From Pseudoxanthomonas helianthi (GTDB lineage Bacteria; Pseudomonadota; Gammaproteobacteria; Xanthomonadales; Xanthomonadaceae), in the NCBI RefSeq assembly GCF_017939625.1, contig NZ_JAGKTC010000001.1, forward strand, positions 1,086,519 to 1,150,518: 64,000 bases of DNA, in the 5' to 3' direction. How positions within the stretch are numbered: the stretch's first letter is position 1; each line of letters opens with the position of its first letter. The notes beneath the pieces were generated by a model. That model was not told the origin of the DNA and did no database searches. It saw only the letters and a list, made by a program, of their open reading frames with translations. Shown piece after piece: positions 55 to 15,928 of the stretch. The position numbers and the translations under genes were made by a program.

Positions 55-83
55 AAAGCCGCTATGTGCGCCTAGGCGGCTTT
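55..83 (-). terminator. Intrinsic terminator of the recombinase gene
   Basis: AAAGCCGC (55-62) pairs with GCGGCTTT (76-83). On the minus strand the hairpin starts inside the last codons of the recombinase and is followed by a short T-run, so it can end that transcript. Seen in sequence; function inferred. Confidence 0.55.
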
Positions 84-761
84 AAGCATGGAGCGAATAG
101 CGGAGGCGTGATAAGCGTTGCCCTTGCCGTTGTAGTGGCCCTGTAGGGCCAACTGCGCGGAAATATCTCGGTAGCTCAGCCGCTTCCCTTCGCTTCCCCT
201 TTTGCGGCGCAGCTTGCGAGCCAGTTCCACTACTTCGGGCCTGACCTCGTGATGGGACTTCCGGCCTTCGCATTTCCCTTCGGCGGCTCGCTTGCGTTCA
301 CGGGCCCCTCGCAACTTGGCAACGATGTTGGCTTTCTCGAACTGCGCGATGGCCCCCATCACCTGCCTAACAAGCTGAGCGGTCGGAGTGTCGTCTAGGA
401 ATCCGCCGGGAGTGTCCACCGCGATGAGCTCGATCCCGCGTTCCTTGAGCAGGCGGTAACCCGTCTCCTGCACGATGAGGTCGCGGGCAAAGCGGTTGGC
501 GGTCTCGACAAGGATCACCCGAACATCGGGATTGTCGGAGAGGTAGGCAAGCAGTTCCCGGAAACCCGGCCTAGCGTCGATGGGGTCGGAGCCGGAAACG
601 GCGGCATCGTAGTAGGCGGGCTCACGGATGACGTACCCCGCTCGCTTGGCAAAGGCTTCGATAGCCGTCCACTGGCGCACGTGGGAATCCTTGCCCTCGC
701 CCACGTTGGTGGCGGAACTGGTGCGGAGATAGGCAACTGCCGGGATAGCCGTCTTTCGCAT
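72..761 (-). CDS. Serine recombinase (resolvase/invertase family)
   Basis: A 229-residue small serine recombinase that would cut and rejoin DNA through a 5'-phosphoserine intermediate. The N-terminus has the family YxRxS motif (YLRTSS, residues 11-16, nucleophile probably Ser15). A RFARD segment follows near residue 90, then the long helix signature around residues 134-160 (AIAQFEKANIVAKLRGARER). The C-terminal 40 residues (SYRDISAQL...) look like the helix-turn-helix that binds the crossover site. It sits at the far end of the island from the rho remnant at 7811, so it is the likely mobility enzyme. It is too small to be a large phage-type serine integrase. The start at 761 is the only good one; the product diverges from the gene at 905. 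Confidence 0.88.
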   Translation of the reverse strand: MRKTAIPAVAYLRTSSATNVGEGKDSHVRQWTAIEAFAKRAGYVIREPAYYDAAVSGSDPIDARPGFRELLAYLSDNPDVRVILVETANRFARDLIVQETGYRLLKERGIELIAVDTPGGFLDDTPTAQLVRQVMGAIAQFEKANIVAKLRGARERKRAAEGKCEGRKSHHEVRPEVVELARKLRRKRGSEGKRLSYRDISAQLALQGHYNGKGNAYHASAIRSMLKAA

Positions 762-904: not shown

Positions 905-1714
905 ATGGGCCAGCTTGTCATCTCGGAGACAGTGATTACCGCCCTCTCTAGACTCGTTGACGATGGGCAGGCTGAAGTGAAGCGTGAGCCGACGCACTCT
1001 GCCATTGAGTTTCAAATCGACAAGGCCAGGTTGTCAGCTGGTGACCCCTCAAAGACAGGCCAGGTTGTTGGCAAAGCTAAGCGTGTAAGGGGCGTCTTGA
1101 GCTGGGGAATGGAAAATGCCCCGCTGAACGCCAGCCAGTTCGCTGAAGCCCTATTGGCCGTAGTTAGGGGCTCCGGCGGCTTCAGAGAGACCTCACCGAA
1201 CTACGCCGGTCGGGAGGCGATCATTGACGCAATAGCGGCGTTTCGAAGCGAGGGTTACGAACTCAGTACTGATGGCGAACTGCGCCCCCTTCTATTGGAC
1301 TCGCTGTCGGGGAAGCCCCTCACCGAAGCCCTCAACGCATATGTCAGACGAGCGCGCGCAGGCGCGTTAGATGCTGCTCTTGTCACCGGGACCGGAAAGG
1401 ATCTTCTTGAGGCAACCGCAAAACATGTTCTTATGACTAAGTTCGGTACAGAACCCACCATAACGAACTTTCCAACACTCCTTGCACAAGCCTTCATAGC
1501 ATTAGGCCTATGCATCGAAAAATCTGCGGCACGGAGTCCACAAGAGCGAGTGGATGCCGCGCTTTATGAACTCGCGTGCGGCGTCAACGCGCTCCGCAAC
1601 GCCCAAGGCATCGGACATGGCCGCCCATTCCCTTCGACCGTCAGCCCAGACGAGGCACGAATCGCAGTAGAGAGCATGGGCGCGGTAGCTGATCGTCTAT
1701 TAACGCAACTCTAG
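905..1714 (+). CDS. Abortive infection family protein (Abi_C domain)
   Basis: A 269-residue cytoplasmic protein. The last 90 residues match the abortive-infection C-terminal (Abi_C) pattern: a helical segment with GLCIEKSA, then ALRNAQGIGHGR (around residues 231-242), a motif typical of these HEPN-like proteins. The N-terminal 180 residues are not recognised. A strong ribosome site (GGAGG, 896-900) precedes the ATG by 4 nt. Proteins of this family are linked to phage exclusion by suicide or dormancy. Its position beside a recombinase in an AT-richer island fits a defence cargo gene. The exact activity, such as RNase, is not shown by the sequence. Confidence 0.75.
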   Translation: MGQLVISETVITALSRLVDDGQAEVKREPTHSAIEFQIDKARLSAGDPSKTGQVVGKAKRVRGVLSWGMENAPLNASQFAEALLAVVRGSGGFRETSPNYAGREAIIDAIAAFRSEGYELSTDGELRPLLLDSLSGKPLTEALNAYVRRARAGALDAALVTGTGKDLLEATAKHVLMTKFGTEPTITNFPTLLAQAFIALGLCIEKSAARSPQERVDAALYELACGVNALRNAQGIGHGRPFPSTVSPDEARIAVESMGAVADRLLTQL

Positions 1715-1758: not shown

Positions 1759-2016
1759 CTATAACCCTTTATGTCGCGGCTGCAGCGCCGCTACCGTTCT
1801 CTTGAGCAGTTCAGTTGAATCTACGCCCATCGCCTTCGCCAAGACGATGAGCGTTGTAATGGTTGGTTGGCGCTGACCGCGTTCCAGCAGCGAGATGTAA
1901 GTGCGATCCAACTCGGCCTCTAGCGCCAAATCTTGTTGCGAGAGCCCAAGACCGACTCGGGCTTGGCGCAATGTCTCGCCAAATGCCCTTTGCACCGATT
2001 TGCTATCCGTCGCCAT
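1759..2016 (-). CDS. XRE-family regulator resembling R-M controller (C) proteins
   Basis: An 85-residue single-domain helix-turn-helix protein. The HTH spans about residues 14-68 (FGETLRQARVGLGLSQQDLA, then RTYISLLERGQRQPT). Size and the TYISLLERGQRQP recognition-helix region are like controller proteins of restriction-modification systems. Two GACTATAGT boxes lie 25-50 nt upstream of its start, matching the GACT...AGTC style of C-protein operators. No methylase or endonuclease gene is visible nearby, so its targets are probably its own gene and the divergent lipoprotein at 2146. Family assignment is firm; the C-protein analogy is inference. Confidence 0.85.
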   Translation of the reverse strand: MATDSKSVQRAFGETLRQARVGLGLSQQDLALEAELDRTYISLLERGQRQPTITTLIVLAKAMGVDSTELLKRTVAALQPRHKGL

Positions 2017-2145: not shown

Positions 2146-2772
2146 ATGACCGACATCAAGCATCGCGCTTTGCTCTCCATGATTGCTCTATGCACCGCCC
2201 TGAGCGCCTGCAAGCCAGATCCCGCCGTCATAGCCAAAAGGGAGACTGCGGCGCAGCAGAAAACCCGACAGCGAGCCGATGTAATTGCACAAATGCGGTT
2301 CCCTCGATGCCTGTTCCTCGCGACTAACGGTGCCGAGGTAAATATCCCTATCACACTAACGGAATCGATGGATTACAACGCATGCGTAGTTGAGCAGGCA
2401 AAGAAACCTATGACGAATGAAGCATTCCACGCTGCCATTGCCAAGCTGTACCCAATGGATAAAGTGGAGAAATCAGAGAATTTTCATTGCTCAGACGCAG
2501 GAGGAGAAGAATCCTGCTCTACCAGCGGGCTATCTTGGGACCAAGACAGCTCCATCGCCGTTCGCTTCTCTCCCAAAGGAGAAGTTACCTCGATCTCGAT
2601 TACATGGAGCGGTCACTCAATCGGAAAGAAGCTACGGGACCTTTGGGGCGAGCCTGCAGCGACCTTCGATAAGACAACGCGCATGCAATATCAGTATTCG
2701 ACAGACTCCAGCCCAACCGTCTTCTTCATCGGCATTGGGGACGGCGAGACAAGGGTCAGCACCTACTTTTAG
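2146..2772 (+). CDS. Putative lipoprotein, island-encoded
   Basis: A 208-residue protein with an N-terminal signal and a lipobox (LSAC, Cys at residue 21), so probably anchored in the cell envelope. The mature part has four further cysteines (CLF, CVV, CSDAGG, SCSTS) that could form disulfides, and a beta-rich C-terminal half. No family is recognised. A good ribosome site (AAGGAG) precedes the ATG. It diverges from the XRE regulator and shares the GACTATAGT boxes, so it is probably under that regulator. A role in the island such as surface exclusion is possible but unsupported. Confidence 0.7.
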   Translation: MTDIKHRALLSMIALCTALSACKPDPAVIAKRETAAQQKTRQRADVIAQMRFPRCLFLATNGAEVNIPITLTESMDYNACVVEQAKKPMTNEAFHAAIAKLYPMDKVEKSENFHCSDAGGEESCSTSGLSWDQDSSIAVRFSPKGEVTSISITWSGHSIGKKLRDLWGEPAATFDKTTRMQYQYSTDSSPTVFFIGIGDGETRVSTYF

Positions 2773-2957: not shown

Positions 2958-4022
2958 TTAGTCCCTAAGAATCTTGAGTTTTGAGAAAGAGAATATCCAA
3001 TAAAGGGGAATTGGGGTTAGTAAATTGCAGGACGGGCAACGCGTCTGCTCTGCGAGATATATCTCAACGGCATTCTTCTTTGTAATCTTCAGCCGAGCAC
3101 GACAATGGCAACACTCGAGGAAACCTTTGAGGCTCTTGTTGAGAGTCCTTCCAATCGGCGACTTACCCTTAAGAAACATTGCCTCGTAGCAACCCAAAGT
3201 ACTCAAGACAAGGTGACCGTAAGTATTTTCATTGACTTTTTGTATGCGATTGAAGCATTCAACAACCACTTGCACTGCAAAAATTAATGCGTACGGCAGA
3301 GAGAAGTACAGCCTGTCATATAACCTGTCGTCAGATGCGTCATTGAATATGAAATTTATTGTGTAATCTTCAGTCTTGAGGAGATCCCCCTTTGATGTAA
3401 TTAAATGAGTCGCCCTCTGCCAAGTAGGCTCAAGCCCATTCTCGTAATTTTTTGAATAAATGATTTTCCAGATTGCCTCGGGATCAAACGCATCCCCAGT
3501 TGAGAGTTTTCCTATAGCGCTAGAAATTATGGAAATCTGCCTCTCTTTAGTCACCCCATTAAGAGACTTGTAGTTGTCCCTCTCAAATCTCGGGATGAAA
3601 TCATCAAAGCTACCGAGAATCCAGCAAAGGAATAATAGATTCTCCTTCAGCGGCTTCCTCAACAGGCTATATCCGACTGCAAATTTGCGTTTTTCAAATG
3701 CAGTGAGTGCCTCATACAGGAAATGACAAAGATCGCTTGTTAGTCCAAGTACGAGATGGCCTAACAAATGTTGTTCATATAAAGAACGCAGATCTTTTTC
3801 CTTGAGAAAGTCGATTAAATCGAAGCTTTGTAGATCAAGGCTTGCATTCGCGGCCGCCCGATTGAATGCCCGCTCAACACGAGTATGAGCGCCAGCGGAT
3901 TCATACTCGACCAGCACACGAGCCATCTGATCGTGGATAAAAAAGCAGAATTCATGGGCTCTATGATGCCGAGCAGGCATCAAAGAAAGAAACTTCCCTT
4001 CTCTTACTCCGATTTGGCTCAT
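2958..4022 (-). CDS. Helical protein with C-terminal zinc ribbon, kinase-cassette member
   Basis: A 354-residue protein of unrecognised family and the last gene of the phosphatase/kinase operon, 30 nt after the kinase at 4053. It is mostly helical (e.g. YSLLRKPLKENLLFLCWIL around residues 117-135), reminiscent of AbiV/HEPN-like or DUF5677-type proteins, but no catalytic motif is certain. Near the C-terminus (about 305-332) two pairs CCHCR and CPSC make a treble-clef or zinc-ribbon metal site. An AGGCGG ribosome site precedes the ATG. The codon use is AT-rich compared with the rest of the window, a sign of transfer. As the non-signalling member it is the likely effector or substrate of the cassette; this is inference. 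Confidence 0.72.
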   Translation of the reverse strand: MSQIGVREGKFLSLMPARHHRAHEFCFFIHDQMARVLVEYESAGAHTRVERAFNRAAANASLDLQSFDLIDFLKEKDLRSLYEQHLLGHLVLGLTSDLCHFLYEALTAFEKRKFAVGYSLLRKPLKENLLFLCWILGSFDDFIPRFERDNYKSLNGVTKERQISIISSAIGKLSTGDAFDPEAIWKIIYSKNYENGLEPTWQRATHLITSKGDLLKTEDYTINFIFNDASDDRLYDRLYFSLPYALIFAVQVVVECFNRIQKVNENTYGHLVLSTLGCYEAMFLKGKSPIGRTLNKSLKGFLECCHCRARLKITKKNAVEIYLAEQTRCPSCNLLTPIPLYWIFSFSKLKILRD

Positions 4023-4052
4023 GTCCGCCTAATCATCCAGAGGCCGTTCACA

Positions 4053-5135
4053 TCATTTAGTCAACTTAAGAACTGGGTACGCTCGTGGCGCAGCATTGCC
4101 ACCCACTTCGTGTTTGGAAAATAGCACTTTGTCCCCCGCACTTAGACCAGCAGCCCCAAACACACAATTTGCATGAAAGAAGACATCCCCATTGTCACTT
4201 CTAATGAAGCCCCACTGCTTATGATCTTGCACTCGCTTAACAGTACCAACTTCTCGTAACGACGAGCTATAACAAAGCTCACCACAGCTACGAACAAGCT
4301 CATCAGCTGATGGTCGCTCGTCTGGATTCCTTTTCATACAGCTCTTGGCCAGATCGATGACCTGTGCAGCAAGTGGATGAAACTGAGGATTTCTCGTGAC
4401 AAATTGCGGCAACTCCGCGGGGACAGCAGCAAGAATCTTATTGACTGCAAGTAGCCCAGTTCCAAAAGGCTCTACGCCTGTCGATAAGTGGAAAATCATC
4501 GCTCCAACCGACCAAATATCGGCCTTTGTCGTAATCGTCCTAGGTGCCTCGATGGCCTCAGGCGCCATATACGGAAGTGCCCCTACGGCGGTGGCTGAGA
4601 GCAGAAGAGTTTGCTCGCCACCGGCATTCGCCTCATCGATCACATCACCTGCGAGCTTGGCTACGCCGAAGTCGGTTACCTTAAGTTCCGTCAGGTTATA
4701 GCCGCCACCGATCATGATATTGGTAGGTTTTAAATCACGATGCACAACTCCCACATGGTGTGCTGCAGCAACTCCCTTTGCTACATGATGAAACACCCTT
4801 GCACACAGATACGGGTCTAGGAAGTTGACTTGTCCCAGTAAGGACTTTGCAAGATCTGCGCCCTCAATGAACTCCTCTATAAGAAATCGCCTCTCATCCT
4901 CGACCAAATAGTCGAGCGTCTTTGCAACATTAGGGTGATTAACTCTCGCCGCAACTATCGCGCTACGCTTGAACCGCTTGGATGCGGAGTTATTCTTTGG
5001 CGTCTTAAGCGCAACTTTTCTTCGTGTCAGTTCATCAATAGCTGCATATACATACTGCATACCGCCTTCTGCGTGATAATTGAGTACGCGGTAGCGGCCT
5101 CCTAACAAATCTCCAGCATCTAGAGGGCCAGTCAT
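4053..5135 (-). CDS. Ser/Thr protein kinase fused to a cold-shock domain
   Basis: A 360-residue eukaryotic-like kinase (about residues 15-288) with the catalytic HRDLKPTN (132-139), DFG (155-157) and APE (191-193). The ATP-binding Lys is in VALKT (about 44). The glycine loop is degenerate (HAEGGMQYVYA). Residues 296-358 form a cold-shock domain with the two RNA/DNA-binding motifs WGFI (308-311) and VFFH (318-321). This suggests a kinase that senses single-stranded nucleic acid or acts on ribonucleoprotein. No transmembrane helix is present. Its ATG overlaps the stop of the upstream kinase (ATGA) and has a strong GGAGGTG site, so the two are translationally coupled. Confidence 0.9.
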   Translation of the reverse strand: MTGPLDAGDLLGGRYRVLNYHAEGGMQYVYAAIDELTRRKVALKTPKNNSASKRFKRSAIVAARVNHPNVAKTLDYLVEDERRFLIEEFIEGADLAKSLLGQVNFLDPYLCARVFHHVAKGVAAAHHVGVVHRDLKPTNIMIGGGYNLTELKVTDFGVAKLAGDVIDEANAGGEQTLLLSATAVGALPYMAPEAIEAPRTITTKADIWSVGAMIFHLSTGVEPFGTGLLAVNKILAAVPAELPQFVTRNPQFHPLAAQVIDLAKSCMKRNPDERPSADELVRSCGELCYSSSLREVGTVKRVQDHKQWGFIRSDNGDVFFHANCVFGAAGLSAGDKVLFSKHEVGGNAAPRAYPVLKLTK

Positions 5136-6184
5136 AGAACCACCTCCGGACGCGACAGATCAAAGGTAATGTACATGCGCATATTTCCTCGCGTAGAAGC
5201 ACCGAGCGCCAAAACGCATGACTCCGGTAGAAGCTGATTGGCCGTTGCTGGCATGTAGTTGATGAAGACTTCGCCTTCCACCTCTTCGACGAAGAATTTC
5301 ATTCCATCGTAGGTTATGCGCACCGACCCAACGCCATCCCATCTGGCTGATACAGTCCTATTGTCCTTATTGAGGTAGTAGGGATGACCCTTATGGACAG
5401 CCAATGCCTGATGCTTATCGAACAGCAGATGCTTCGCCAACTCATCTCGAACAGAAGCCATTAATGGACGCCGACTAGGGTCCATATGCATACATGCCTC
5501 GAGTAGACGAACAACATCTCCAGATAGCCCAGAGTTCAACCGCTCAAAAAAACCAACAGGCAGCGCCTGAGGAGGCATTGGCCGCCGCATGTCCTCTGGG
5601 AGCTGACCTGCAATAAGGTGAATCGCGGTTGCGCCAAACGCATATGTATCGACGGCCGGAGTAAACGCTACGCGCCCATCAAATAGCTCGGGCGCCGCAA
5701 AGCCATATGTTCCGATGAACCCCAGCGTTGAGGCATTTACGCCATTATTTCGTGCGAGGCCGAAGTCAAATATCTTAATGACTCCTTCCGGATCAATTTT
5801 CATGTTGTTCGGCTTGATGTCACGATGTATGACACCAGCGTCATGAATATCAGCTATGCCCGAGGCAATTTGCCAAAGGCATCTATACTTTTGTGCAACC
5901 GATACCGGGTGCCCATCCCTCCGCCAGAGGTCATTGCCCTCGATAAACTCCTGGACGACAGCCCTTCCTGCTTCGACCGGCACAAGATCGTAGACTTGCA
6001 CTACATGCTTGGAACGTAGTTTCAGAAGCGCATCGATCTCGTCGGCCATTCGGCGCTCATCAGCTACATTCTGTAGCACCTTGATTGCGACAAACCTTGC
6101 GAGAGTGACGTCCTTGCATTTATAGACCGAACCCATACCGCCATTTAGCGGGCCTTCGATGACTTCATAGCGAGTCGGAAACAT
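5132..6184 (-). CDS. Ser/Thr protein kinase with FHA-like beta-rich C-terminus
   Basis: A 350-residue soluble kinase. The glycine loop GGMGSVYK (15-22), AIKVL Lys (about 35), HRDIKPNN (120-127), DFG (140-142) and APE (164-166) are all present, so it should be active. The last 85 residues are a separate beta-rich module (SVRITYDGMKFFVEE, then VFINY and CVLALG) that resembles a divergent FHA or similar phosphopeptide-binding fold. I chose the ATG at 6184 (MFPTRYEV), just inside the kinase domain and after a GAGGG site; an upstream in-frame start would overlap the phosphatase gene. It lies 10 nt after the PP2C stop, typical of a kinase/phosphatase pair. Confidence 0.9.
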   Translation of the reverse strand: MFPTRYEVIEGPLNGGMGSVYKCKDVTLARFVAIKVLQNVADERRMADEIDALLKLRSKHVVQVYDLVPVEAGRAVVQEFIEGNDLWRRDGHPVSVAQKYRCLWQIASGIADIHDAGVIHRDIKPNNMKIDPEGVIKIFDFGLARNNGVNASTLGFIGTYGFAAPELFDGRVAFTPAVDTYAFGATAIHLIAGQLPEDMRRPMPPQALPVGFFERLNSGLSGDVVRLLEACMHMDPSRRPLMASVRDELAKHLLFDKHQALAVHKGHPYYLNKDNRTVSARWDGVGSVRITYDGMKFFVEEVEGEVFINYMPATANQLLPESCVLALGASTRGNMRMYITFDLSRPEVVL

Positions 6185-6194
6185 ACCCCATCCC

Positions 6195-7295
6195 TCAGTC
6201 CTTTGACCCCTTGGAAAAGCTGAGCTGCACTTGCGGCGCCTGTTCCTCAATTAGATCTTCTTGAATACGTCCCTTTCTCGGCTTCTTGGACGTCTTTGTA
6301 CTCCCACTTTTTTGAGCTTGCTTGCGCGCACGCTTTGGTTTTGACTTTTGCGCTACTGCAGCTTCTTCAGGCGTGCTTTGCTCTTGCCGATTCCGCTCAG
6401 TCACCGTATGGAATGTAAGTAGAGCGTCCCCGAAGCTATCCCAGATCTCCATACAGTTCTCGAGCTTTTCTTTCGACGCCGGAAATGGCAATGGCGCTGA
6501 AATTAAGGCTGCCGAGGCGTTATCTGGCCCACCCGCCCACTTCGCAATCTCCACTAACCGCCTTGCTATTACACCTTCGTCTACTCCACGCCCCGCATTT
6601 AGTACCTGCGTAAGAAGACGCTTATCGGGACTTACAAAATAGACTCCATCTGTACTTAGAAGAATCTGTTGCTCATCTTTCTTATCAAACTCAGCAATCG
6701 AGAGCACAAGCTCTTGCCCCATGCCGACAAATTGCAAAAGAAAGGATCTCTCTAGTATTTCGTCATCATAGCGACCGAGCTGACCAGCGATAGTGTCGTC
6801 CTTCGATAGCTGTTCAAGGACACTATCCTTATATGCATAGATGCGGCTATCACCGACGCTTGCCCAGCACGGGCGGCCAACTTCGCTAAAAAGCACCGCA
6901 GCTACGGTGGTACCGCCTCGTCCTCCATAGGAGCCATACACCCTCTCATTGGCTGCCATTAAGGCACGTTCCAGCCAAGCCGCCGGCTTACTCTGACCTA
7001 TCTGCGCCTCTACGTAGACGGCCTCAAAAATTGTGGCGACTGATATTGCAGCGCATTGCATACCGTCACGTAGTCCTCCTATGCCATCGGCTACCACTGC
7101 AAGAACATAGGAGTTTCCGTATCTATCAGCTGCCCGACATACGGCCAACCGATCCTCATTCCGGTCACGCACACTACCAATGTCACTAGCCATGCCAATA
7201 GGCATTGGCCCAGCCCGCCGAGCTCCGCCTCGGGGGACCGCACGGAGAAGCCAGTTCGTGAGCCGGCGATGAAAGAACCCGTCGATTGATGTCAT
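6195..7295 (-). CDS. PP2C-family Ser/Thr protein phosphatase
   Basis: A 366-residue metal-dependent phosphatase, the first gene of the four-gene operon. The PP2C motifs occur in order: RNEDR (45-49), VADGIGG (68-74), GGTTVAAV (about 126), VGDSR (about 144), STDG (about 213) and GGPDNAS (about 273). The metal-binding aspartates are intact. A low-complexity Lys/Arg-rich tail follows (about 318-350, KSKPKRARKQAQK...), which could bind nucleic acid or the kinases. It presumably reverses phosphorylation by the two downstream kinases. A weak GGAAA ribosome site precedes the ATG. No transmembrane segment is evident. Confidence 0.92.
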   Translation of the reverse strand: MTSIDGFFHRRLTNWLLRAVPRGGARRAGPMPIGMASDIGSVRDRNEDRLAVCRAADRYGNSYVLAVVADGIGGLRDGMQCAAISVATIFEAVYVEAQIGQSKPAAWLERALMAANERVYGSYGGRGGTTVAAVLFSEVGRPCWASVGDSRIYAYKDSVLEQLSKDDTIAGQLGRYDDEILERSFLLQFVGMGQELVLSIAEFDKKDEQQILLSTDGVYFVSPDKRLLTQVLNAGRGVDEGVIARRLVEIAKWAGGPDNASAALISAPLPFPASKEKLENCMEIWDSFGDALLTFHTVTERNRQEQSTPEEAAVAQKSKPKRARKQAQKSGSTKTSKKPRKGRIQEDLIEEQAPQVQLSFSKGSKD

Positions 7296-7810: not shown

Positions 7811-7912
7811 TTGCTGCACCCGATGGACGAGATCGCGGCGATGGAATTCCTGCTGGACAAGATGAAGAACACCAAGTCCAACGACGAGTTCTTCGCTTCG
7901 ATGAAGCGGTAA
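7811..7912 (+). pseudogene. rho: 3' end of transcription terminator rho (island junction)
   Basis: In frame to the TAA at 7910, the sequence encodes LLHP, then [16 protein letters not shown] (from 7823) and ends [10 protein letters not shown], the conserved C-terminus of Rho (E. coli Rho ends HPMGEIDAMEFL... and DDFFEMMKRS). Nothing upstream of about 7811 continues the Rho frame. This is therefore the distal end of rho separated from its body by insertion of the island. The rest of rho, or a complete copy with a regenerated end, should lie left of position 1. The fragment has no start signal and is not a gene in itself. The rho terminator follows at 7935. Confidence 0.85.
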
Positions 7913-7934
7913 GCGATTGGCCTTCCGCCGCAAG

Positions 7935-12390: not shown

Positions 12391-15300
12391 TTACGCGCGC
12401 GGCTCGCGCAGGAAGCGGGCCAGCGGCGCACCAGGGATGGCCGGGGCGAATTGCGCGGCGACATCGACGAAGCCGCGCATCACCGCGATTTCGCGCGGGC
12501 TGCGGTTCAACGCATCGCGCAAGTCGGGGTCGGCGCCGGCACGCAACAGGCGCTGCACCACTTGCAGCAAGCCATGCAATGCGGCCAGGTGCAGCGGGCC
12601 GAAACCGCGCGGATCCTGCACGTCCAGCGAGACTTCCTCGTCCAGCAGGCGCTCCAGCGCGGCCAGCACCACGTCCTCGTCGCAGGCGGTGCCCGGCTCC
12701 GCGCGTGCGCCCAGCAACAGCAACAACGGCGTCACCGCGCCGGCGGCGACGCTTTCCGCCTCGGCGCCGGCCAACAACAAGGTGTCGAACAACGCGACCA
12801 GGCGCGAACGGTCGCGGGCGACGAAGCCGTACAGCGCAGCGCAATGCAGCGGGGTCAAGCCTTGCGCATCGCTGGCGTGCACGTCGGCGCCTGCGCTGAG
12901 CAAGCGCGCGACGATGTCGGGCAGTCCCAACGCCGCGGCCAGCATCAGCACGGTGACGCCGCCGGGCAGGCGGTGTTCGAGTTGCGCGCCGGCCTGCAGC
13001 AGCACCGCGACGATCTCCGCCTGGCGCATGCTGACCGCCGCCGACAGGGGCGTGGCGCCGGTGTTCGCCGCGCGTTGCGGATCGGCGCCCCGCGCCAGCA
13101 GCACGTCGACCGTGGCGCGATGGCCACCGCCAGCCGCGCGCAGCAGCGCGGTGCAGCCCTGCTCGTCGACGGAATCGACGGCGAAGCCGAGATCAAGCAG
13201 TCGCCGTACCGCATCGGCGTCGCCGGCCATCGCCGCGGCCGGCAGGTCGGCGGCGCGCAACGCGCGGCGCGGCAGCGGCCAGCCGCGCCAATCCAGCCAG
13301 TCGGCGAGGTCGCGGCGGCCGGCGGCGAGAGTCACGCCCAGTGGCGTCTGCCCGTCCGCGGCGCGCGCGCCGGGGGCAGCACCGTGCGCGATCAAGCGCT
13401 TCAGCGCCGACTCGCGGCCCAGCGCCGCGGCCAGGTGCAGCGCGGTCATGCCGCGCGGGTCGCGCGCTTCCAGGTTCACGCCGATGTCCAGCAGGCGTTC
13501 GAGCAGGCGCGGCGCATCGAGGCGCACGGCCAGCGCCAGCGTCGGATCGCCATGCTTCGAGGGCGCGAACGGATCGGCACCGCGCTCCAACAGTTCCAAC
13601 GCGAGATTTTCGACGTCGGGCGAAGGCGAAGTCGCCGCGCCCAGCCAACGCGCCAAGCCTCCCGCGCCGGCCGGCGAAGCGCCGGCATCCAGCAGCACGC
13701 GCAGCGACGGCAGTGCGGTGCGGCCCAGGCCCAGCAGGGCGAACAGCGGCGTTTCGCCGACGCCATTCACCACTTCGAAGCGCGCGCCATGGGCGAGCAG
13801 CCAGCGCAGCGCACCGGCATCGAGATCGGGATCGTGCAGCAGTCCGCCCAGCTCGTCGGCGGTGCACAGCCTGACCAGCGCGTCGAGGCCATCGCTGCGG
13901 CCTTCCTGCAAGGCGTCGCGCAGCAGGCCGAGCGGCGCGCGGTCCGGCGCGGGTTCGTCGCCGGGGCGCACCGCCGCGGGCAATGCATAGTCCGGGTCGA
14001 GCGCCGATACCAGCGACCAGCGGCCGGCGGACGCGGCGACATCGATCGGGCGCTTGCCCGCAGCATCGACCTGCTCCGGATCGACACCCCATTCCAGCAG
14101 GCGCCGCACCAAGGCCGGCGACACGTCTTCGGCGGCGCTGGCGAGATGCAGCGCATTGCGGCCTTCGGCATCGTTCACCGCGGCGGGCGCGCCGGCGGCG
14201 GCAAGTTTTTCCAGCGCGGGAAGACGTGCGCCGCGCGCGGCTTCGAGCCACGGCGTGCGCCCCTGCGCGTCGGCCGCCTGAACATCGGCGCCGGCGGCCA
14301 GCAGGATATCGATGATTTCCACGTGCCCGGCGAGCGCGGCTTCGTGCAGCGCGCTGCGGCCGCTCGCGTTGCGGGTGTCGGCCTTGGCCTTGTACTTCAG
14401 CAGCAACTGCACGCCGGCGGGATCGTCTTCCTCGGTCGCGGCGGCAGCCAGCAGGACGGGCTGGCCGCGCGGCGGTTCGGGTTTCGCGCCGCGTTCGAGC
14501 AGGAACTTGGCCAGGCGCCAGTTGCCGGCGATGCAGGCGATGCCGAGCGGGGTGAAGCCATCGGCGTTCAGCGCGTCGATCTCGGCCGCGGCATCGCGCA
14601 GCAACGCGGCGACGCCCGGATCGGAACTGCGCGCGGCGTGGTGCAGCGGCGTGTTGCCGTCGGCATCGGTGGCGCGCGGATCGGCGCCGTTGGCCAGCAG
14701 GGTGGTCACCGCATCGGGCCGACCGTGCCAGCTGTCGCGAGTCGCGGCCAGCAGCGGGGTCACGCCGGCCTGGGCGAGGTTGAGGTTCACGCCGCGTGCG
14801 ATCAGTGCGCGCAACAGGCGCAGGTCGGGCAATACCGCGGCGAGCGCGGCGAGGCTGCGCTGGTCGCGACTGTCGGCGGGCGGCATCGCGTGCGCGTCGG
14901 CGCCGGCATCGAGCAATTGCAGCGCGCGCTCGACCCGGCCGGTACGCGCGGCTTCGTACAACTCGGCTTGCGCGGCGCGATCCGGCTCCAGGCCGCGCGC
15001 GGGGTTCGACGGCGGCTCGGAAACCGCGGGCGCCTTCATTTCGACCACCGGCAAATCGAACGAAGATTCGCGCGGCGAAAGTTCGACTTCGGCCAGGGCT
15101 TCGGCCTGCGGCGCGCGCTGCACGCCCCAATGCAGCACCGGCAGCAGCAGTGCGTAGACGATGGCGAACGGCCAGCGCAACGGCGCAGCGAGCAGCCCCG
15201 GCCAGGCCAAGACAATGCCGCCGGCCAACACCAACGCCAGCAATGCGGCGACGCCCAGGCCGCTCCAGGTCCATACGTGGCGGCCGGCGAGGGCAGGGCG

Positions 15301-15678
15301 TCGGCCGCCTTCGCGTTCCAGTCCCCACCACAGCGGCCAACTCCACCACAGCGCCAGCACGATGGCGGCGATGGCTGCGCTCAGCCCCAACGCGGCGCCC
15401 AGGCTGCCGCTGCCGCGCAATGCCTGCAGCGGCCACGCCGACAGCAGGGCGGCCCCGGCGAAGCCGCCGGCCCACGACGCAAGCAGCGTGCCGGCATCAC
15501 GCCCGGCGAAACCCGGCGCCCGACTGCCCCGCCACCAGGAAACGCCCAGCGCGGCCAAAGACTGCGCCAGCAGTGCCGCGACGACGGCCGGCCATTCGCC
15601 GAACCCGCCCAGCGCCGCGACGACTACCGCCAAACCGGTGGCGATGCGGGCGTGGGAGCGCGCGTTCGCCTCAGCCAT
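12391..15678 (-). CDS. Large membrane-anchored ankyrin repeat protein
   Basis: A 1095-residue protein. The first 190 residues contain about five hydrophobic helices, so it is anchored in the inner membrane. From about residue 235 to the C-terminus it is an array of roughly twenty ankyrin repeats (e.g. [24 protein letters not shown]-type units, each ending with LLxxGAD). Such arrays are protein-binding scaffolds. The family appears conserved in xanthomonads but I know no assigned function. The ATG at 15678 overlaps the end of the YcgL gene (stop at 15671-15673), so the two are translationally coupled; a GTG two codons upstream is the only alternative start. Confidence 0.85.
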
Positions 15679-15928
15679 CGGCACGCTCGCCGGGCACGAC
15701 TTGCGGTGGGAACTGGATGTGGAAACCGCGCGCGGCCAGGTTGTTGCGCACCACTTCCACGTCTTCGCGGGCCAGCTTGCGCTCGGGGGTCAGCGCCACT
15801 TCCAGCACGAAGCCGAGCGGGCCCAGTTGGGTGCGCAATGGTTCCGGCAGGCGGGCGAAGTCGTCGCGCGCGGCCAGGTACACGAAAGTGTCGGCCTTGC
15901 GCTGGCTTTTGTAGACGTAGGCTTGCAT
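15671..15928 (-). CDS. YcgL-domain protein
   Basis: An 85-residue cytoplasmic protein beginning [19 protein letters not shown], the signature of the YcgL family (DUF709), and including [19 protein letters not shown] and HIQFPP. The family is small, widespread in gammaproteobacteria and of unknown biochemical role. Length is slightly below the usual 90-100. It is the upstream partner of the ankyrin gene, with an 8-nt overlap. It diverges from the S9 peptidase at 16077. Confidence 0.85.

Follow-up and report, generated by a model that had tools for sequence, protein, structure and literature searches.

The kinase-kinase-phosphatase (KKP) module PfpC-PfkB-PfkA was described by Guo et al. (2024) as a tripartite, phosphorylation-based toxin-antitoxin system directed against lytic phages (PMC11341870). 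According to the part of that publication on which we draw, PfpC is a PP2C phosphatase, PfkB is a kinase whose tail is designated FHA, and the second kinase, PfkA, has a cold-shock domain bearing GFI or GFA; the motifs GGM, HRD, DFG and GFI were mutated in the study. PfkA and PfkB jointly, never singly, phosphorylate many host proteins and halt growth, which is reversed by PfpC, and each of the four modules tested from species other than Pseudomonas gave E. coli protection from T4 (PMC11341870). The same part of the publication reports more than 1200 clusters, found only in Gram-negative bacteria and located in prophages in approximately 90% of cases, as well as 114 KKPs outside prophages, 70 of which are linked to mobile-element genes; it classes KKP as a type VII-like toxin-antitoxin system and allows that non-prophage copies control inter-element interactions. 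PfpC is inhibited by Gp59 of T4 (PMC11341870) and, in the portion of a further report that we use, is degraded through the action of the Pf4 protein RepG4 (PMC13048266). Here we describe a KKP locus in a stretch of 64,000 nucleotides of Pseudoxanthomonas helianthi (GCF_017939625.1, contig NZ_JAGKTC010000001.1, positions 1,086,519 to 1,150,518; the whole stretch is called the window below), in which a preliminary description had proposed the four genes at 2958-7295 as a candidate new four-gene defence system.

Our analyses identified the PfpC-PfkB-PfkA triplet as the already described KKP phage-defence module and no new system. We consider it very likely that 4053-7295 is a KKP module on an island of ∼11.4 kb at the 3' end of rho, that by analogy it would act as the tested KKPs do, and that the fourth gene, X4, belongs to an independent downstream family dispensable for KKP. 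The locus as a whole is a further, non-prophage copy of a known defence system adjoined by a probably unrelated gene, X4. The original proposal was correct in seeing a defence module of kinases and a phosphatase on mobile DNA; our analyses lend no support to its terms "new" and "four-gene". All four genes are uninterrupted minus-strand open reading frames (ORFs) and follow one another in this order:

6195 to 7295, minus strand: PfpC, leading gene of the KKP module, a phosphatase of the PP2C family and predicted antitoxin (Pfam PP2C_2, 4.8e-9).
5132 to 6184, minus strand: PfkB, Ser/Thr kinase with a C-terminal all-beta tail, published as FHA (Pkinase, 1.5e-39).
4053 to 5135, minus strand: PfkA, Ser/Thr kinase with a C-terminal cold-shock domain (Pkinase, 4.8e-43; CSD, PF00313, 9.1e-8).
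2958 to 4022, minus strand: X4, 354-residue helical protein with a C-terminal four-cysteine ribbon (33 homologous loci, none with a KKP gene).

The triplet matches KKP because gene order, orientation, length, motifs and junctions all agree. The three genes are adjacent on one strand in the order PP2C, kinase, kinase, and with 1101 (PfpC), 1053 (PfkB) and 1083 bp (PfkA) they all lie within the published KKP filter of 900-1300 bp. GGM, HRD and DFG are present in both kinases, and the cold-shock domain of PfkA bears GFI at residues 309-311. The GGM, HRD, DFG and GF(I/A) positions of PfkA are conserved in aligned relatives; identity to relatives is 43-62% for PfkA and 39-57% for PfkB. In PfpC, the DGxGG, GDxR, DG and DN positions, which we take to be the PP2C metal-site motifs, are invariant across an alignment of seven sequences. 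The reading frames of PfkB and PfkA share 4 bases. At the other junction, a TTG start of PfkB at 6250 was rejected in favour of the ATG at 6184, which lines up with the starts of relatives and is preceded by a purine-rich stretch; judged from the sequence, the TTG start is probably wrong (Pkinase over the longer frame, 5132-6250, reached 1.8e-39). With the ATG start PfkB begins 10 bases past the stop of PfpC, so that these two genes do not overlap, and the overlapped or closely spaced arrangement described earlier holds for PfkB/PfkA and has lost its PfpC/PfkB overlap. The PP2C phosphatase and two Ser/Thr kinases of the preliminary description were recovered by Pfam, with the cold-shock domain in one kinase. 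The two-kinase layout with a cold-shock domain, which matched none of the systems familiar to the author of that description, is that of KKP in the part of the KKP study used here (PMC11341870).

A TerY-P-like triad, or another kinase/phosphatase stress-signalling system unrelated to KKP, has to be weighed against this identification. The TerY-P layout includes a PP2C phosphatase and a Ser/Thr kinase, and PP2C and kinase genes adjoin in the window as well. The PADLOC models mad6 and PD-T4-6 match both kinase domains, through general kinase homology, and NCBIfam and PADLOC together gave only general kinase or phosphatase matches for the three KKP genes (for PfpC, NCBIfam Stp1_PP2C at 7.5e-32, under the curated cut-off of that model). 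However, no VWA or TerY family was found in eight scanned ORFs (the four cassette genes and four neighbours), in agreement with the earlier remark that a TerY-type VWA protein is missing, and TerY-P was rejected on this ground. Two kinases, one of them with a cold-shock domain, constitute the published KKP layout, and 19 of 20 homologous loci are ordered as KKP. We regard a system of this kind as extremely improbable here.

These homologous loci came from searches with PfkA, which retrieved ten plasmid records, one Klebsiella phage record and fifteen viral contigs. Four plasmid loci, the phage locus and the fifteen viral contigs were checked, corresponding to 5 of the 11 plasmid and phage matches and giving 20 loci; L053 and L054 represent the same contigs as L016 and L017, L061 and L062 have near-identical scores, and the tested modules of the KKP study were not identified by name among the 20. 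The order PfpC-PfkB-PfkA was present in 19 loci, including a P2-type E. coli element, the Klebsiella phage record and IMG/VR contigs, so homologous clusters do occur in phage-type elements; the exception, L067, holds a kinase fragment only. The 4-base overlap of PfkB and PfkA seen in the window recurs in all 19 ordered loci (in L007 by the annotated start). In a sample of 369 genomes of the host's class, PfkA was found at E<=1e-60 only in its own genome. Among 5426 complete E. coli genomes, 14 contain the kinases of L005 at >=99% identity. In addition, the phosphatase gene is broken into two ORFs in L005 (613-1778) and in L060 (3755-4917), and an IS5-family transposase lies between the phosphatase and the kinases in L006 (3843-4961). 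Loss of the antitoxin next to intact kinases would be puzzling; several further E. coli records with L005-type kinases carry an annotated PP2C phosphatase.

X4 looks like an independent gene and no component of KKP, because no KKP gene was found at the X4 loci examined, no X4 was found at the PfkA loci examined, and X4 is AT-richer than the KKP genes. Its first relatives were found on Vibrio and Pontibacter plasmids and in three genomes, and KKP was absent from the stretches examined. When genome contigs were then searched with an alignment of three rows, 33 X4 loci were obtained, seven of which are 46-57% identical over near-full length; two of the three earlier genomes recur in this set (L042 and L046). 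KKP genes were found at none of the 33 loci (single-sequence searches at E<=1e-5, profiles at E<=1), where upstream DNA extends to at least 1 kb in 30 and at least 3.3 kb in 28. Conversely, X4 was found in none of the 20 PfkA loci (profile E<=10), of which L053 and L058 end less than 2 kb past PfkA and the other complete loci extend for more than 5 kb. The content of guanine plus cytosine (GC) is 43.5% in X4 and 50-53% in the KKP genes versus 68% in window 9001-64000, which bears out the AT-richness noted at the outset. Conservation of the four-gene neighbourhood had been proposed as a check, and the set was not found together at any of the 33 X4 or 20 PfkA loci. Two of the outcomes that the preliminary description had named as refuting it were observed within this range, namely agreement with a described system and absence of the complete set from other genomes.

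Several observations weigh against the reading set out above. The identity of PfpC to six aligned phosphatases is just 27-33%. The module lies outside any recognised prophage, unlike approximately 90% of the published ones. The PfkB tail (window 5132-5419) is published as FHA, though the FHA model PF00498 matched none of eight scanned PfkB proteins (E<=0.5), and comparison of the tail with nine FHA domains by hhalign was weak (probability 1.8, P 0.028; six column-shuffled controls in the same comparison gave 0.23-0.63). These nine domains, from related genomes, remained from 16 roughly cropped loci after seven had been dropped by eye for a wrong frame or stretch. The weak profile match is colinear and confined to the C-terminal half of the tail. 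The tail is conserved across 13 sequences and all-beta in the AlphaFold2 model; its profile found no FHA chain among PDB sequences, and the best 50 Foldseek matches listed for the PfkB model include kinases and do not address the tail. The tail could be an FHA domain that has diverged, or else a docking domain resembling FHA.

The remaining points of this kind concern X4. It starts 30 bases after PfkA on the same strand, so that co-transcription of PfkA and X4 is possible, and for L020, L021 and L022, which are among its seven closest relatives, the DNA upstream spans less than 1 kb, so that a more distant KKP is conceivable there. These points favour a variant of KKP with four components, where X4 would serve as an additional sensor or effector, for instance as a substrate of the kinases or as a protein restraining them via its ribbon. 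The absence of KKP from all 33 X4 loci and of X4 from all 20 PfkA loci argues against such a variant, as does the lower GC content of X4 relative to the KKP genes, and we consider it quite improbable. A single four-gene system was likewise rejected, as no co-occurrence was found in the loci examined.

The KKP module with its independent neighbour X4 is carried by an island whose ends could be located. The gene left of the window is presumably rho, judged by eye from the C-terminus that it encodes. The 102 bp that end this gene recur at window 7812-7913 (98% identity), flanking the island as a direct repeat, which is also recorded at L068:10440-10541; the copy within rho forms the terminus of that gene and lies ∼3.5 kb before the window start. 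A tyrosine recombinase gene (Phage_integrase, 7.4e-14) begins ∼145 bases past rho, just inside the island. The ∼11.4 kb between the repeats hold this recombinase, small genes, a serine recombinase, an Abi_C gene, a helix-turn-helix regulator, a 208-residue ORF, X4 and KKP. A recombinase-bearing island beside an Abi_C gene had been described beforehand, and Pfam found both the resolvase and Abi_C. Besides the cassette, the following features were delimited:

72 to 761, minus strand: serine recombinase of the resolvase family (Pfam Resolvase, 1.8e-25).
905 to 1714, plus strand: Abi_C-domain gene (Pfam Abi_C, 9e-11).
1759 to 2016, minus strand: small HTH_3 regulator (Pfam HTH_3, 2.7e-15).
2146 to 2772, plus strand: 208-residue ORF with a putative N-terminal lipoprotein signal, seen by eye (no match in Pfam, PADLOC and NCBIfam scans).
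7812 to 7913, plus strand: right island end, 102-bp copy of the rho 3' end (98% identity).

In six same-genus genomes, taken from 37 with a kefC-like gene, rho and the kefC-like gene are separated by 0.3-8.3 kb versus ∼13 kb in the window genome, and the island genes had no match at 1e-15 in these six. In one genome, G922 (L082, repeat recorded at 13344-13446), part of the repeat is present a second time, 75% identical and ∼7 kb away from rho, pointing to a further element at this site. The literature on rho-integrated islands offered nothing on point among the matches listed. Outside the island, 12391-15684 encodes a 1097-residue ORF, by eye a putative ankyrin-repeat protein.

By analogy with the tested KKPs, PfkA and PfkB would act jointly as a growth-arresting toxin restrained by PfpC. 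A phage product would disable PfpC, upon which the kinases would phosphorylate many host proteins, and this mass phosphorylation would stop growth and phage production. That the scheme applies to the window copy is our best guess. Gene content, order, motifs, homology, the lack of association of X4 with KKP in the loci examined and the island ends are shown here; how this copy works, what triggers it, its defence activity and the dispensability of X4 are inferred. On the other hand, the module could be KKP by descent with its main role here in keeping the island stable, as a toxin-antitoxin system, or in controlling another mobile element, and not in defence. The type VII-like classification and the inter-element role allowed for non-prophage copies, in the part of the KKP study used here (PMC11341870), are in line with this, and so is the integration of the module in rho alongside recombinases. 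The intact catalytic and cold-shock motifs speak for defence instead, together with the protection against T4 that the same part of the study reports for all four non-Pseudomonas modules (PMC11341870), and we regard a mainly stabilising role as rather unlikely. Identification of the dual-kinase cassette as KKP means that its annotation and testing can draw on existing knowledge.

As for X4 itself, the preliminary description of a helical zinc-ribbon protein of no known family was accurate. Structure prediction had been suggested there for the 354-residue protein and the kinase tails, and AlphaFold2, which gave the all-beta tail of PfkB, gave a mostly helical X4 with a mean predicted local distance difference test (pLDDT) score of 86.6 and a predicted template modelling (pTM) score of 0.87. 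The C-terminus has two CxxC pairs, in which C304, C307 and C329 are invariant and C332 is nearly so across 30 sequences, and the conserved motifs HEFCFFLHD, RKP and NFNFIF were seen in the same alignment. The alignment comprises the window protein and 29 of the 33 loci, omitting L021 (cut by the contig end) and L047, L050 and L052 (short or broken frames). Pfam gave no match to X4 at E<=0.1, and no curated Pfam, PADLOC, NCBIfam or PHROGs model matched the window protein. Among PDB sequences its profile had weak matches only (best 0.047; at the ribbon in seven of eight), and Foldseek of the model returned nothing at E<=0.001 in PDB or BFVD. No relative was found in phage records and viral contigs at the sensitivities used, and the class sample of 369 genomes contained only the genome's own copy. 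PHROGs and NCBIfam scans of the 30 members gave scattered weak matches, each in at most three members. DUF5677 (PF18928) weakly matched two of the 30 (best E 0.0028), PADLOC PDC-M14A three (best E 0.0015) and phrog_10675 three, and the window X4 matched none of them. These matches serve as leads only, those to DUF5677 and PDC-M14A being too weak for an assignment; no literature on DUF5677 was among the matches listed.

Clustering of X4 neighbours (32 of the 33 loci, without L032, plus L002, L003 and L012) showed neighbour families recurring in three loci at most, and the only family to reach three contains a recombinase. In a family scan of 100 of the 129 listed neighbour genes, Dsr1, SIR2, SoFic, JukA and HamB models were among the 25 of 85 PADLOC families listed; there was no background control, and no enrichment is claimed. 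Several individual contexts were recorded. X4 lies 19 bases after a gene for a 1360-residue protein with an N-terminal MqsA-type helix-turn-helix domain in G896 (L019:5030-9112), and 3-5 bases after genes for homologous proteins of ∼770 residues in Sphingomonas (L035:5601-7931 and L038:5638-7929). It is followed by an HEPN_Cthe2314 protein (Pfam 3.4e-9) in G997 (L018:10746-11501) and by a 311-residue protein with a weak DUF5677 match (0.0022) in G560 (L012:8820-9755). A defence function of X4 is a conjecture. Tentatively, X4 could found an undescribed, mostly standalone family with a helical body and a C-terminal zinc ribbon, acting as a lone abortive-infection protein; if this is true, X4 would stack with KKP and the Abi_C gene on the island as a second defence layer. 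X4 is what remains novel about the cassette, an orphan family with a confident structure prediction and 33 loci for testing.

Compared with known systems, the window shares with the TerY-P triad a PP2C phosphatase and a Ser/Thr kinase, and differs from it by its two kinases and by the lack of a VWA protein in the eight ORFs. Stk2 of Staphylococcus is likewise a kinase-based defence, whereas it is a single host-encoded kinase, as stated in the part of the KKP study used here (PMC11341870). In contrast to published KKPs, the window copy sits on a rho-integrated island that is not a recognised prophage, is followed by X4, and has a PfkB tail that the FHA Pfam model misses. With KKP it shares gene order, orientation, lengths, kinase motifs, a cold-shock domain with GFI in the last kinase, a conserved PfkB tail and a mobile context, and it adds a rho-integrated, non-prophage member from Pseudoxanthomonas to that system.

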